DNA of 47,904 bases, from positions 1-47,904 of the IMG/VR virus record IMGVR_UViG_3300022745_000045. One strand, 5' to 3'. Both the position numbers and the translations under genes were made by a program. Below are positions 26,449 to 32,254 of this stretch, one piece after another. The notes beneath the pieces were generated by a model. That model was given only the letters and a program-made list of their open reading frames with translations, made no database searches and was not told the DNA's origin. This DNA comes from a virus. Numbering within the stretch: position 1 is the first letter of the stretch; every line of letters starts with the position of its first letter.

Positions 26449-27248
26449 GATGGCCTCCGGTCGGCGCCGTCCGCCATCTTGGCGTGGAACTCGCGCCATG
26501 CGTCGTCCGGGTAATCCGTCGCCTTCGGTTGCCACGCAAGGTCCGGCGGACCGCCGAAGCCCTTCATGGGCGGCGCGAACCATGCCGGGGGCTTGTGGGA
26601 GACGCCGTACTCCTTGGCGAGGTCTTCGGAGAGCGTGATGAGCGTCGACCGGCAATTGTAGTGCGCGGGCGGATTGTGCGTGTGCCAGAACGCATCCGAC
26701 GCGGGGCGCACGACGCCATCGCACGCCGCGCACACCTCGGTCGTACGGTCGTCCATGACCGCCGAGTACATCCAATAGGGCCGCATCGCGAGCGTGTCCG
26801 GGTCCGTCGCCTCGGCGTAACGGCCCGCGGCGTACGCGCTCTGCACGTTCGTGCGAAAGATGGTTTCCATCCGCGCGCTCGGATTCGCGACCGTGCCCGC
26901 CCACGCGTTGCGCAGCGTGTCGCCGATGGCCTCTTGCCACTCTTCGAGCGTCTGCCCGTCGGCGACGGCCTTCTCGATTGAGCGCAGAACGTCGCTCACG
27001 ATGTCCAGGTCGACGACGCCGGCGACCGTGAACGACTGTGCGCGCTCGCGCGCCGACATCTTGGCGAACTCGCCCTTCGGCACCGCAGCGCGCCGCCGCA
27101 GCGATGCGATGGCCTCTTCGGGGGGCAGGCGCGCAATCTCCTCGAAGTAGTCGCCGGCGACATCGAGCGCGACGTGGCGCAGTTCGGGCACGCGCGTGTC
27201 AGCGCCTACGCGCTGCCCTCCGCAATCGTGCTCCGCCGACCGGTCCAT
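26445..27248 (-). CDS. Mu gpF-like head morphogenesis protein
   Basis: The 267-residue product shows the minicapsid/gpF pattern: QSFTVAGVVDLDIVSDVLRS, TIFRTNVQSAYAAGRYAEAT, MYSAVMDDRTTEVCAACDGV and HTHNPPAHYNCRSTLITL, with conserved Cys and His. It is needed for head assembly or DNA ejection. ATG 27248 follows GGAAGG; it overlaps the portal end by 50 bases, longer than other overlaps here, so the true start may be further in. Confidence 0.8.
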   Translation of the reverse strand: MDRSAEHDCGGQRVGADTRVPELRHVALDVAGDYFEEIARLPPEEAIASLRRRAAVPKGEFAKMSARERAQSFTVAGVVDLDIVSDVLRSIEKAVADGQTLEEWQEAIGDTLRNAWAGTVANPSARMETIFRTNVQSAYAAGRYAEATDPDTLAMRPYWMYSAVMDDRTTEVCAACDGVVRPASDAFWHTHNPPAHYNCRSTLITLSEDLAKEYGVSHKPPAWFAPPMKGFGGPPDLAWQPKATDYPDDAWREFHAKMADGADRRPS

Positions 27249-28878
27249 TCGATGCGCCTTCCCTTACCACCGCGAGCCCACCTAGGAGCCGCGCCCGGAG
27301 CCGTGCGGTCTGCATGGCGTCGGTCAAGCTCCGCGACACGTCGCGCTGCGCGTAGAGAGCTAGCACGGACTGGCGCACGCTGTCAAACGTTGGCCCAGAC
27401 TCGCACACTGCGACCAGCCGCTCGACGAAGGCGTTCACGACGTCCGTCGCCGGCTCCATCCCTGCGCTGTGCCACTGGTCGAGCAGCTGCTGCGCCGCGA
27501 TGGCGTGGCGCATCGATGGCGCGCGCACGTCGCCCGTCGACAGCGCCATGTGTACCGGCTCGGTCGGCGAGGGTGTGCCATCGGCGTTCGGTGGTGCAGC
27601 CGGGGGCGGCGGCTCGGCGAGCATCGGCACGTCGAGCTCTCTGAGCAACTCGCCGACGTCCGCGCCGGCCGCCTGGAGCGCGGCGAGCGACGGAGCGATG
27701 GCGGTGATCGCGCTGATGCGGTCCGCCTCGGAGCGGTCCGTCGACGCGCCGTAGTCGATGGTGACAGACGCCGCGGCCTCGGGGCCGTAGTGCTCGGCGA
27801 GCCACGGGCCGAAGAATTGGGCGTTCTCCGTTTCGGCGTCCGCCGCGAGGTCGGCGGCGACAATCTCGCCTTGAATGTCCGATTGCGCCTGCGCGGCCGC
27901 GCCGCTCGACGACTTCGCGCTGGCCTTCGTCGTGAGGTTCACGCCGAGGATTCGGATCGCGTAGTTGTTGTCGGTGCGCTCGATGTACGTGTCGTAGGCC
28001 TGCGCGTTATTCGCCACGGGTGGCGTCACGATTTCGAGGTCATATTTCGGACCGCCTGGCTCGGTGTCCTGCTCGACGACGATTGTCGTCTCCGCGCCAA
28101 GCGCGTTGACCTGGCGAAGGAATGGACCTTTTTTTCTCTGGTCAGCGTCCGGCGGCACGATCGCCTTGCGGATGCCGAGCGCGTAGAGCTCCATCAGGCG
28201 CGGCCAGTCGCGGTTCATCGCGAAATTTCGGCCGAGCCAATTCATCCCGAGTGACCGGAGCGTGCCGCTCATCCACGACCTGCGCCCGTACGGCTCGTAC
28301 ACGACGAACTGACCCGGAATGCCGTGGCCAACGTCGACGATGCCCTCGTACGTGATCAGCTGGTAGCTCTCGATGTCGAGCCGATAGTAGATGTACTGCG
28401 GGTGCCACGGCTCCAGCGACCAGCGCCAGGACTCCGTATCCGAGTCGTACACCTTGATCACTTGGGCGATGGCGAAGCCGAGCCCGACGCACCACTCGCG
28501 GAGCTGCGCGCGCGCACCCTTCGGAATCATCCGCGACGCCGCACCGTCGAGCGCGACGCGCGCCTCTTCCGCGTCGCTTCGCTCGGCGAGCTTGACCGTG
28601 CGAGGCGCGCCCGCGGCGGTCTGCACGCGCGTTTGCATGCACCCGGCGTAGCGGTCGTCGCGCATCATCGCGTCGTGCAGGATGGCCGATTGATTGAAGA
28701 GTCCGTTTTCGTGCGCGTTGATCGCAGAAAACACCGTCGGGACGTCGTATTTGAGCGCCGGCACGGTGACCGGCAACTGCCGATATCGCCGCTGCGTCGG
28801 CGCCTCGTGCGTGGCGAGCGGGTTGGTCTGCACGCCGATGTCGGCGACGGGGAGCGGGTTTGCGTAGAGGCTGGTCAT
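27199..28878 (-). CDS. portal protein, Mu gp29-like (DUF935)
   Basis: The 559-residue product has the DUF935 portal pattern: MMRDDRYAGCMQTRVQTAAG, LREWCVGLGFAIAQVIKVYD, WSLEPWHPQYIYYRLDIESY, NWLGRNFAMNRDWPRLMELY and DNNYAIRILGVNLTTKASAK. It forms the dodecameric DNA gate at the capsid vertex. ATG 28878 overlaps the terminase stop. The last 20 residues are Arg-rich and overlap the gpF gene. Confidence 0.85.
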   Translation of the reverse strand: MTSLYANPLPVADIGVQTNPLATHEAPTQRRYRQLPVTVPALKYDVPTVFSAINAHENGLFNQSAILHDAMMRDDRYAGCMQTRVQTAAGAPRTVKLAERSDAEEARVALDGAASRMIPKGARAQLREWCVGLGFAIAQVIKVYDSDTESWRWSLEPWHPQYIYYRLDIESYQLITYEGIVDVGHGIPGQFVVYEPYGRRSWMSGTLRSLGMNWLGRNFAMNRDWPRLMELYALGIRKAIVPPDADQRKKGPFLRQVNALGAETTIVVEQDTEPGGPKYDLEIVTPPVANNAQAYDTYIERTDNNYAIRILGVNLTTKASAKSSSGAAAQAQSDIQGEIVAADLAADAETENAQFFGPWLAEHYGPEAAASVTIDYGASTDRSEADRISAITAIAPSLAALQAAGADVGELLRELDVPMLAEPPPPAAPPNADGTPSPTEPVHMALSTGDVRAPSMRHAIAAQQLLDQWHSAGMEPATDVVNAFVERLVAVCESGPTFDSVRQSVLALYAQRDVSRSLTDAMQTARLRARLLGGLAVVREGASNGPVGGARLRRAARRR

Positions 28879-31655
28879 TCGTCGTCGTCGCTCCCTGGTG
28901 TCGTGAGGTCGCGCGCGAAGGTGCGCGCTGCATCGTTGTCGCGCTCGCTGAATTCGGCGGACTTGCGGCCGAAGAACAGTCTGGTCATCCCGTGCACGAG
29001 CGCGTCAATCCGGTCCGGCGACTTGCCCGCCGACGGGTCCCACTCGGTCATCTGCGATTCGAGCTTGACCAGCCCGGCGCGGTGACGGATTCGCCCCTGC
29101 TCGTACAGCGCAGACACCGGCTCGGCTCGCGCATGTTTCGACTTGCTCGCGTACACGCCGCGCACCGGCACGTCAGGATCAATCGATCGAATCGTGGTCC
29201 GCACCATCTCGCCGCCCGCGTTCATCTCGGCGACGATTTCGTCTGCGTTCCAGCGGTAGAACGCCGCAATCGCACGGCGCGCCCACACGGACGGGAGCAC
29301 CTTGCCGCTGCGGTCTTCGAGCGCGTAGCCCACGCCATCGTGGTCCATGCCGCACACCACGACGCCGGCCTCGGCGCTCGATGCGTTGGCGGACTCGCTC
29401 GGGTCGACCGCGACCACCGTGCGCCGCATCGCGGGCAGGTCGGCGAACGCATCGAGGCGGATGGCGTCGAGCTGGCGCATCGTCCACAACGCGCCCTCGA
29501 CGTCTTCAAGCAGTTCGGCGCGTAGCTCTTGCCGACCGAGCCGCGTGCCCTCGTACTTCTTGCGAATCTCGCTGAGAAACAGTGGCGCAAGGTTCGATGC
29601 GTTGTCGTACGTCGACCCGCGCGTGACACGCGTCGACGGGTCCTTGACCAACGCGCGCAGCCACGGCGTCGCGCGCGGCGTAGTGGTCGCGACCACCTGC
29701 GGGCGCGCGCCGAGGCGCAATCCGAACATGAGCTGATCCCACGCGCGCGAGTAGCGCCAGAGGGCGGCCTCGTCGCAGTTGTGAACTAGGATGCCGTTCG
29801 CGAAGTATTCCGGCTCGCCCTCGACGGACACGTTGTGAACGATGGCCACGCCCGCGGGATCCCACGATGCCGCGACGTTCACGGCGTGCGTGTGCGCGCC
29901 GCGCGATAGCGACAGCAGCGCCGATGCGAACGCCGTCTGCCCGGCTGCGAGCGCGTCGAGCGACGTCCAGCCGTCCGGAGTGAGCACGGGATGGTCGCCC
30001 GTGCCGGTCAACGTCGCACCCGTCGAGAACCGCACGCGCCCAACGTCGGCGGCATGGTGGCCCGTCGCCGTCACGCGACGCAGCCCTCGACGCGTCCACG
30101 CGAGGTCACCGGCCACGACGGACTCGATCGGGACGTCGCCGCGCGCCGTGGATATCAGCGTCCCCGCGATGAAGCACCACGCCTTCGTATGCTGCGGCCC
30201 CGCCATCTGGTCAGGCTTGTCCGCGCTGTACGTCGTCGCGATTGCGCCGTTGGGCCACCGCAACGCGCGCACGCTCGGCACGTACTCGGGCCGGAACCAC
30301 GGCGGCGAGCACGCGATGATGCCCGACTCGCCCTTGACCATCGTGTCGCGCACGTCGTCGACGGTGCGGCCGACGAGCGCGATACGCGCGTTCGGGTCGA
30401 GGCGCGCCTGCGTGTTGACCCACTCGGCGCCCGACCTTGTGTTGTGAGTCGGAATCATCGCCTCGCCCGCGAGAAACATCGAGTGCGGCGAGTCGACCGT
30501 GAGGCACCGCATCGGCCGCGACCCGATGCGCTCGAAGCGCACGATCATCCGATGATGATTCCGAAGCCCCTGCGACGTCGGGCGCTTGGTCTGCGCGAGC
30601 TTGCGCGGCAATCGGAACACGTTGACCGTCGGGCGCCAGGTGACCCTCCACTTGGGTCCCTTGTCGACGCCGTACAACGTCGAGCGTCCCTCGGCGATGA
30701 CCGGCTTCTGTCCGAGCGACCGCGCGAGCTCGACGACGGCGCGCGCGAGTCCGTGGTTCGTATTGCAGAACTCGACCTGCCCCGAGCCCTGCGACCCGCC
30801 GCCGTCGCTGTCCATGAGCCCCTGGAGCAGCGCGAGCCGCTGCGCCGCAGACGCGCGGAGGTACACCGCGGGCACGCGTTTGGCGTGTAGCAGCCCCTCG
30901 GCGCGCAACGCGGCGTGCAGCCCGCGCGTGCCGAACGCTTGCGGGTCGCGCCGCGTCGTCGTGCGGATGCCCGCGCGTTCGAATTGCGCGCGCACGTGCG
31001 GTAGGTCGTCTTCGTGCCCGAACACGTCGCCGCTCGCGCTCGCGCCGTTGCCGAGCCACGCGCCGAGCACGTAGGGGTCGATGGGGAGCGCCGCGTCGGG
31101 TAGCTCGAGCGGCCCGCACGTCGGAACGCAGTGGTTCGTATCGCCGCGCGTTCCGTGCGTGAACGTGTCGACGATGGCCTGCGTCGTGCGCACCTGCGGC
31201 CCGCGGTGGATACTGCGCCACGCCGGCCACTCCGGCGGGAACCGCGAGCGGTCGCGCATGGACCGCGAGCGAAGGAACGACTTGCGCTCGGCGTGCGTCC
31301 ACGTGACCCACTGGTGGTCACTGCACGCGTCGAGCGATGTCCCGTCGGAGAAGTGCAGGCGGTACGCGACTTCGGGCGCCGGCACCTCGTGCACGGCGGT
31401 GACGCGGCAAGGCCTGCCGGACTCGTCGAACACTGCGTCGCCGGCGGCGATGTCGCCGAGCCGCGTCCACCCGGACGGCGTCGGAATCGCCGTCGACAGG
31501 TCGAGCGCTTTCCCGAACCCGCGCCCGGCGAGAATCAACCACACCGACCACTCGCCATCGGGCGGCAGTTGCTCGCGACGCGCGTTGACTTCCCACACGT
31601 ACCGGCGTGCGAGGTCCTCCGCGTCGCTCGTGCAGTAGGGCAGATGCGACGTCAT
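28875..31655 (-). CDS. terminase large subunit interrupted by two inteins
   Basis: The 926-residue precursor contains two inteins; removing them leaves 437 residues, a normal terminase length. Extein motifs: Walker A GRGFGK|TRSG (split after K49), Walker B WCDEAA (split before Cys627), and an RNase H-like nuclease with D751 (AVDPS), E810 (VAEMNAGG) and D881/D884 (SPDRIDAL). The protein should pump DNA into the prohead and cut it. Both ATPase motifs are broken until splicing, so packaging activity depends on two splicing events. It lies between the small subunit and portal genes with 4-base overlaps. The nuclease and ATPase residues appear intact. Confidence 0.9.
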   Translation of the reverse strand: MTSHLPYCTSDAEDLARRYVWEVNARREQLPPDGEWSVWLILAGRGFGKALDLSTAIPTPSGWTRLGDIAAGDAVFDESGRPCRVTAVHEVPAPEVAYRLHFSDGTSLDACSDHQWVTWTHAERKSFLRSRSMRDRSRFPPEWPAWRSIHRGPQVRTTQAIVDTFTHGTRGDTNHCVPTCGPLELPDAALPIDPYVLGAWLGNGASASGDVFGHEDDLPHVRAQFERAGIRTTTRRDPQAFGTRGLHAALRAEGLLHAKRVPAVYLRASAAQRLALLQGLMDSDGGGSQGSGQVEFCNTNHGLARAVVELARSLGQKPVIAEGRSTLYGVDKGPKWRVTWRPTVNVFRLPRKLAQTKRPTSQGLRNHHRMIVRFERIGSRPMRCLTVDSPHSMFLAGEAMIPTHNTRSGAEWVNTQARLDPNARIALVGRTVDDVRDTMVKGESGIIACSPPWFRPEYVPSVRALRWPNGAIATTYSADKPDQMAGPQHTKAWCFIAGTLISTARGDVPIESVVAGDLAWTRRGLRRVTATGHHAADVGRVRFSTGATLTGTGDHPVLTPDGWTSLDALAAGQTAFASALLSLSRGAHTHAVNVAASWDPAGVAIVHNVSVEGEPEYFANGILVHNCDEAALWRYSRAWDQLMFGLRLGARPQVVATTTPRATPWLRALVKDPSTRVTRGSTYDNASNLAPLFLSEIRKKYEGTRLGRQELRAELLEDVEGALWTMRQLDAIRLDAFADLPAMRRTVVAVDPSESANASSAEAGVVVCGMDHDGVGYALEDRSGKVLPSVWARRAIAAFYRWNADEIVAEMNAGGEMVRTTIRSIDPDVPVRGVYASKSKHARAEPVSALYEQGRIRHRAGLVKLESQMTEWDPSAGKSPDRIDALVHGMTRLFFGRKSAEFSERDNDAARTFARDLTTPGSDDDE
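29778..30176 (-). mobile_element. class 1 mini-intein, at terminase Walker B
   Basis: Residues 494-626 form a 133-residue mini-intein with no endonuclease. Block A is CFIAGTLISTARGDVPIESV (Cys1), block B is TGTGDHPVLTPDGW, block F is VHNVSVEGEPEYFANG, and block G is VHN followed by Cys at +1. These are all the residues of a class 1 intein (Cys1, block B His, terminal Asn, Cys+1); the penultimate residue is His. Splicing yields TKAWCDEAA, the Walker B motif. Confidence 0.92.
30441..31508 (-). mobile_element. class 3 intein with LAGLIDADG endonuclease, in terminase Walker A
   Basis: Residues 50-405 of the terminase form a 356-residue intein. It begins with Ala (ALDLSTAIPTPSGW), not Cys or Ser. 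It carries the class 3 triplet: Trp in block B (SDHQW, intein position 67), Cys in block F (RCLTVDS, position 335) and Thr as the +1 extein residue after HN. It also has blocks C and E of a LAGLIDADG endonuclease (YVLGAWLGNG and LLQGLMDSDG). The block C acidic residue is Asn here. Joined exteins read GRGFGKTRSG, restoring the P-loop. Confidence 0.9.
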
Positions 31656-32254
31656 TCGTCCTCGTCCTCATCGTCCGTCGGCTCCTCGACGGGCGGCGCG
31701 CGCAGCTTGGCGGCCTCTGCCTCGCGCCGTTGCGCCTCGAGGTACCGCGCGCGCACCGCCTCGGCAGCTCGTGCGAGGTCGGCCTCGCTCGACTTCGCAG
31801 CCGGCGCGGGGGGCGGTCCGTCGAGGCCAGCGACGGCGCAGTAGGCGAGCATGGCCTTCGTGGCCGCGGTGAATTCGCGCGCGGCGAACGCTTCGGTCGC
31901 GACCTTCTGGTGGAAGGAAAGCGCCATCGTGCGCATGTCGGCCGCCGCCTCGGGTGTGAGCCCCATTCGCATCTGGCGGTGCGCCTCGGCGGCCATCCTG
32001 CCGACGTTGTTCGCCGTGCACTGCCACTCGTACGCGAGCGCGTGGCTCGTCACGCCGGGGACCCATGCACCGATCGAAATCAGTTCGCGGATCCAGAGCA
32101 CGCGAGAGCCAACGTCCGTGGCATCGGCTGCGCAAGTCGGCACACCGTATTTTGGCGGTGTTTCGCGCGCGCGCGCGCGTGAGTGACCGACGGCCGCGCC
32201 CCGCTTTCCGCCGCCCGCTTTCCCCTTCTTCGCCTTCTCAGCCACCTCCGGCAC
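31652..32254 (-). CDS. terminase small subunit-like protein
   Basis: The 200-residue product lies directly upstream of the large terminase with a 4-base overlap. It has a basic N-terminal region (KAKKGKAGGGKRG), a helical middle with a possible helix-turn-helix (SHALAYEWQCTANNVGRMAA), and an acidic C-terminal tail (EEPTDDEDEDE). DNA binding plus an acidic end fits a packaging-site recognition subunit. The start is GTG 32254; GTG 32245 is possible. Confidence 0.6.
   Translation of the reverse strand: MPEVAEKAKKGKAGGGKRGAAVGHSRARARETPPKYGVPTCAADATDVGSRVLWIRELISIGAWVPGVTSHALAYEWQCTANNVGRMAAEAHRQMRMGLTPEAAADMRTMALSFHQKVATEAFAAREFTAATKAMLAYCAVAGLDGPPPAPAAKSSEADLARAAEAVRARYLEAQRREAEAAKLRAPPVEEPTDDEDEDE

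Follow-up and report, generated by a model that had tools for sequence, protein, structure and literature searches.

Two predicted inteins of different class interrupt the Walker A and Walker B motifs of a phage large terminase

The large terminase (TerL) gene described here very probably encodes a phage precursor protein that carries two independently acquired and probably splicing-competent inteins, one of class 3 within the Walker A motif and one of class 1 directly ahead of Walker B. The arrangement is an uncommon case of a known phenomenon. A second feature, found in relatives of the Walker B intein, is more novel than the double intein itself, whose novelty is modest; in these relatives an HNH homing endonuclease appears to be encoded as a separate gene, nested within the intein DNA in another reading frame.

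The terminase locus and its interrupted large subunit

The window, meaning the whole stretch of DNA that was analysed, is IMG/VR virus record IMGVR_UViG_3300022745_000045 (47,904 nt, 47.9 kb). In addition to a portal protein of the Portal_Mu type, it encodes tail-sheath and head genes and an uninterrupted DnaB; among the phage matches listed for this DnaB, the best are ~35% identical. A search of phage records gave no near DNA match to the window, and no plasmid match was found that covers most of the TerL precursor. The TerL gene lies between the portal gene and a probable small terminase gene, overlapping both (Table 1); the product of the latter has no Pfam or PHROG match.

Table 1. Predicted features of the terminase locus, in coordinates of the window
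Feature	Coordinates	Strand	Residues	Content or basis
TerL precursor ORF	28875..31655	-	926 aa	Two inteins; ATG start, open and complete
N-extein	31509..31655	-	1-49	C-terminal end is Walker A AGRGFGK
Intein 1	30441..31508	-	50-405 (356 aa)	Class 3 splicing domain and LAGLIDADG endonuclease domain
Middle extein	30177..30440	-	406-493	From the Walker A Thr to HTKAW, after which comes Walker B CDE
Intein 2	29778..30176	-	494-626 (133 aa)	Class 1 mini-intein
C-extein	28878..29777	-	627-926	Walker B CDE, coupling motif TTTP, RNase H-like nuclease (Terminase_6C)
Portal protein (Portal_Mu)	27199..28878	-		Pfam match; start overlaps TerL stop (ATGA)
Probable small terminase	31652..32254	-		Position only; stop overlaps TerL start (ATGA)

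When the unspliced ORF is searched with hmmscan, only the C-terminal half of Terminase_6N is found (E 7e-10), along with Terminase_6C. Once both inserts are removed, the exteins total 437 aa and both profiles are continuous, Terminase_6N with E 2.2e-21 (profile 1-210 of 215) and Terminase_6C with E 1.1e-17 (profile 2-152 of 155). The ATPase and nuclease motifs are legible in the exteins as AGRGFGK|T, KAW|CDE, TTTP, AVDPS, EMN and DALVHG, and judged by these the predicted spliced product is a TerL of the Terminase_6 type, with Walker A, Walker B, the coupling motif and an RNase H-like nuclease all present. The earlier note on this DNA had described a 356-residue class 3 intein between Lys and Thr of the P-loop, a 133-residue class 1 mini-intein before the Walker B Cys-Asp-Glu, and a 437-residue terminase with complete ATPase and nuclease motifs after their removal; since Terminase_6N becomes continuous only when the inserts are taken out, that description was confirmed to the residue.

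In the nearest intein-free terminases (56-58% identity), both sites are empty and the residues run continuously across both junctions. At the Walker B site, Cys occupies the +1 position in 20/20 occupied alleles as against 16/61 empty ones (Fisher p 1.6e-9, with L164 left out of the count as its intein sits at a neighbouring position), and the empty alleles mostly have Ala there, as do the nearest empty relatives of the window. At the Walker A site, the +1 residue is Thr or Ser in all rows. By residue identity, the +1 pattern at both sites is what splicing chemistry would demand.

The Walker A intein

Intein 1 splits the Walker A motif between Lys and Thr. Its position 1 is Ala, which offers no nucleophile, as is expected of class 3, and Ala is likewise found there in 47/75 relatives. 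The WCT triplet comprises W67 (block B), C335 (block F) and T354 (block G), and among 75 Walker A intein relatives Trp, Cys and Thr are kept in 74, 75 and 74, respectively, and His and Asn likewise in 74-75. With H65 of block B, the penultimate H355, the terminal N356 and Thr+1 also in place, every signature residue is present, and by these residues the element is assigned to class 3. Searched alone with tblastn, intein 1 matched 561 phage records, 418 of them across at least 80% of its length; together with the end-to-end match of intein 2 to a TerL intein, this indicates that the inserts are not chance sequence. It groups with the Walker A inteins of other Terminase_6 TerL proteins (support 98/75, 15 rows). 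Among solved structures, it is closest in sequence to the class 3 DnaB1 inteins 6rix, 6riy and 6bs8 (E 1.6e-22 for 6rix and 3.1e-21 for 6bs8), and an AlphaFold model built on a 50-row alignment (pLDDT 96.2) matches PI-SceI over its full length and 6bs8/6rix across the splicing domain, which predicts a Hint domain into which a LAGLIDADG endonuclease is inserted.

Of the two LAGLIDADG motifs, only one has its acidic catalytic residue, as block E (LMDSDG) retains Asp (D235) and block C reads LGNG rather than LGDG, the catalytic Asp being replaced by Asn (N154). In LAGLIDADG enzymes generally, such an Asp-to-Asn change is likely to abolish cutting. The Asn occurs in 11 of 75 rows, scattered over the intein tree, and the idea of a dead endonuclease specific to the window was dropped on account of its recurrence in 10 relatives across that tree. 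In view of this recurrence, loss of endonuclease activity is judged no more than likely. A separate observation on block B is that position 62 of intein 1 is Cys, in place of the Asp that predominates among class 3 relatives (Cys in 15/75).

The Walker B intein and a hidden HNH gene in its relatives

Intein 2 lies directly ahead of the Walker B Cys-Asp-Glu. It has Cys1, T59xxH62 and H132-N133, followed by Cys+1, and C1, T59, H62, H132 and N133 are invariant in 14 aligned rows; with every signature residue present, it is assigned to class 1. It matches a TerL intein end to end (37% identity, E 7e-15), and its model (pLDDT 96.0) finds the Ssp and Npu DnaB and Mtu RecA mini-inteins in Foldseek with TM about 0.8-0.9, so that a Hint fold is predicted. 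There is no endonuclease within its 133 aa.

The Walker B relatives of intein 2 are mostly ~270 aa and thus have ~140 residues extra, in which Pfam, run on L075, found no endonuclease match in the intein frame. The possibility that the middle of the ~270-aa inteins is an in-frame endonuclease domain was dropped, as the intein frame is empty by Pfam and HNH_3 lies in frame +2. That frame of the same intein DNA encodes an HNH protein of 163-181 residues that matches HNH_3 with E 8e-14 to 2e-12 in the three cases tested. Its conserved ATG start lies near intein nucleotide 245, and its stop falls within the C-terminal splicing part. Conservation is higher in frame +2 than in the intein frame in 55/55 pairs, mean identity being 51% in frame +2, 34% in the intein frame and 31% in the third. 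The intein frame is nonetheless open in 11/11 inteins, whereas the third frame carries 4-11 stops, and synonymous reshuffling of the HNH codons would be expected to leave ~1-3 stops in the intein frame on average (combined p about 2e-5, for rows that are not independent). Examples of the nested gene lie at L075:4188-5000, L177:3349-4158 and L217:3996-4814, and others in L162, L188-L190, L192, L195, L204, L205, L306 and L307. Further cases found later, always in frame +2, are L275 at the Walker B site and L176 and L169 at other sites, and the arrangement is also present in Tetrasphaera phage TJE1 (L219), Acinetobacter phage Highwayman and Rhodobacteraceae phage MD07. The evidence for a nested +2 HNH gene in these relatives is strong.

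Shortened pieces of the HNH frame are kept in L196 (176 aa), L198 (149 aa) and L207 (134 aa), and L161 (130 aa) keeps only its tail. The window's own intein 2 has no HNH open frame at +2, nor was any recognisable HNH peptide found in that frame. In the intein frame, it aligns with the stretch that overlaps the HNH tail in full-length relatives (AVNVAASW vs AASVVSTW), which suggests that it probably passed through the same HNH-bearing state. It is a reasonably probable account, if well short of assured, that intein 2 belongs to a dual-frame lineage in which the HNH homing endonuclease is a separate +2 gene nested in the intein, both frames are kept open, and the mini-intein survives when the hidden gene is lost by deletion. 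There is a partial precedent in the ShiLan insertion, which likewise hides an out-of-frame HNH endonuclease within an insert that is open in the host frame (PMC11855218); the ShiLan insertion, however, has no splicing domain, whereas in the relatives of intein 2 the HNH gene sits inside a bona fide intein. An actinobacteriophage intein preprint cited in PMC11855218 (doi 10.1101/2025.01.02.630785) refers in its title to a 'non-canonical architecture'.

Independent acquisition at the two sites

Across a TerL tree of 82 spliced sequences, built by a short tree search, the Walker A state changes at least 11 times and the Walker B state at least 9 times, counts that are rough given the weak resolution of deep forks, several long branches and the recruitment of many rows via their own inteins. 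The four multi-intein cases that were placed (the window, L209, L124 and L094) fall in four separate parts of the tree. Within one clade, both inteins occur in L209 but only the Walker B intein in its sisters L192 and L200; elsewhere, the Walker B site is filled in L075 and empty in the closely related L032, L034, L036 and L040, which marks either a recent gain or an exact loss of an intein with a hidden HNH gene. Both sites thus appear to have been filled many times independently, in keeping with the independent invasions proposed in the earlier note. A sample picked by the nuclease half of the protein (80 loci, ~70 of them readable) contained two Walker B inteins, no Walker A intein and no protein with both.

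Other terminases and ATPases with more than one intein

Two inteins in one TerL are rarer than single inteins, and they are not unique to the window, there being both double cases elsewhere and published precedents. Like the window, the IMG/VR viral contigs L209 and L207 have a class 3 LAGLIDADG intein at the Walker A Lys|Thr junction (its start lying off the contig in L207) and a class 1 mini-intein of 133-134 residues ahead of the Walker B CDE; in contrast, their TerL belongs to a distant clade and their inteins are 44-50% identical to those of the window. As a side observation, the L207 and L209 mini-inteins (L207:894-1295 and L209:2509-2907) have identical ends and strongly different middles, despite a TerL and a Walker A intein that are nearly identical, a pattern that looks as if the Walker B element had been replaced or partly converted. 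A TerL ORF of 1578 aa at L124:3695-8428 contains three inteins: two of class 3, of which one is at Walker A and the other lies between the motifs (about aa 595-925), and one of class 1 at Walker B. L094 combines a Walker A intein with a class 1 intein four residues beyond the Walker B site, and L163, a different terminase, has a class 3 intein at Walker A and a class 1 intein in its C-terminal part.

Among published systems, DnaB of Mycobacterium smegmatis likewise unites the two classes in one ATPase (PMC6195587). Its class 3 intein, DnaBi1, lies in the P-loop and is closely related to intein 1, with a solved structure; its class 1 intein, DnaBi2, lies at another site. It differs from the window in being a helicase rather than a terminase, in having its class 1 intein in a DNA-binding loop, and in the reverse distribution of endonucleases, its class 1 intein having one and its class 3 element being the mini-intein (PMC6195587). 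Mycobacteriophage TerL1-a (Walker A Lys|Thr) and TerL1-e (Walker B) inteins, as reported in PMC5050341, occupy the same two regions of TerL as do those of the window. According to the same source, splicing was demonstrated for representatives of several TerL sites, including TerL1-e, and TerL1-b and TerL1-c cut intein-free alleles; its available text groups TerL1-e with class 3, unlike the class 1 intein at Walker B here, and mentions no single protein with both TerL1-a and TerL1-e. The TerL of cyanophage Mic1 has two inteins in one protein (PMC7156551), but the second is in the nuclease domain, and both start with Cys and so include no class 3 element. Two Hint-Hop inteins are also reported for the TerL of the crAss-like Delta phage OBYQ01000140 (PMC7886860), their classes and sites not being given in the available text of that source.

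Proposed splicing mechanism and alternative readings

Initiation by the block F Cys and passage through two branched intermediates are the hallmarks of class 3 splicing. In intein 1, Cys335 would attack the N-terminal junction, the chain would pass to Thr+1, which is the Walker A Thr, and cyclization of Asn356 would allow the exteins to join. In intein 2, Cys1 would form the thioester, Cys+1 would take over the N-extein and Asn133 would cyclise. The Walker A Lys and Thr, as well as Walker B and the segment that leads into it, would be brought together only by splicing, and a homopentameric TerL could hardly assemble with inteins in place, an argument made in PMC5050341; the precursor should consequently be inactive, with the ATP site whole, and the motor active, only after both excisions. 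From known chemistry and the positions of the inserts, we infer that both inteins splice, in one order or another, and that packaging depends on the two events.

A stronger role can be imagined, in which the inteins form a two-key post-translational switch on packaging, for instance a redox switch. C62 of intein 1 could form a disulfide with the nearby catalytic C335, M. smegmatis DnaBi1 is a redox sensor that acts via its catalytic Cys118 (PMC6195587), and a biosensor role for TerL inteins was proposed by the authors of the Mic1 study (PMC7156551). Against this, most related TerL proteins are intein-free, as the ~70 readable nearest loci illustrate, so that such a switch would be dispensable, and this reading is unlikely. 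More improbable still is that one or both inteins are splicing-dead, the gene being a pseudogene or its precursor only cleaved. Both elements have probably entered the decay phase of the homing cycle, given the Asn at one catalytic position of intein 1 and the lack of an endonuclease in intein 2, and the class 3 intein of Arthrobacter Arth_1007 is described as a pseudogene in PMC3196547. However, neither intein has lost any splicing residue or junction nucleophile, the frame is open, GC3 is alike across inteins and exteins (0.86-0.91), both models are confident and no second terminase gene was seen in the window. The earlier note had allowed that homologues might reveal the inserts to be ordinary terminase domains, a reading that is now scarcely credible and was rejected, as close relatives lack the inserts at exact residue boundaries, relatives of intein 1 occur also in DnaB and in unrelated terminases, and both inserts match solved inteins in fold.

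The preferred reading, that of two splicing-competent inteins acquired independently, carries with it a view of their history. Intein 1 would stem from class 3 inteins with a LAGLIDADG endonuclease, a family that has spread over phage terminase P-loops, and intein 2 would be an immobile mini-intein that has lost the out-of-frame endonuclease of its relatives. Since both thus look to be past the mobile stage, their persistence may reflect the difficulty of exact deletion or an adopted role.

Significance

In this terminase, one enzyme would have to undergo two splicing reactions of different chemistry before its ATP site is complete. Nature thus offers a clean case in which the order of class 3 and class 1 splicing, and any interference between them, should be measurable within one chain. 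The terminases gathered here also form a dataset with empty, single, double and triple intein occupancy in one family, in which the endonuclease may be encoded in a second frame, be shortened or be deleted, and with which the intein homing cycle may be tested step by step. If the out-of-frame HNH arrangement is borne out, the search for intein endonucleases would change, as annotation confined to the intein frame misses them.
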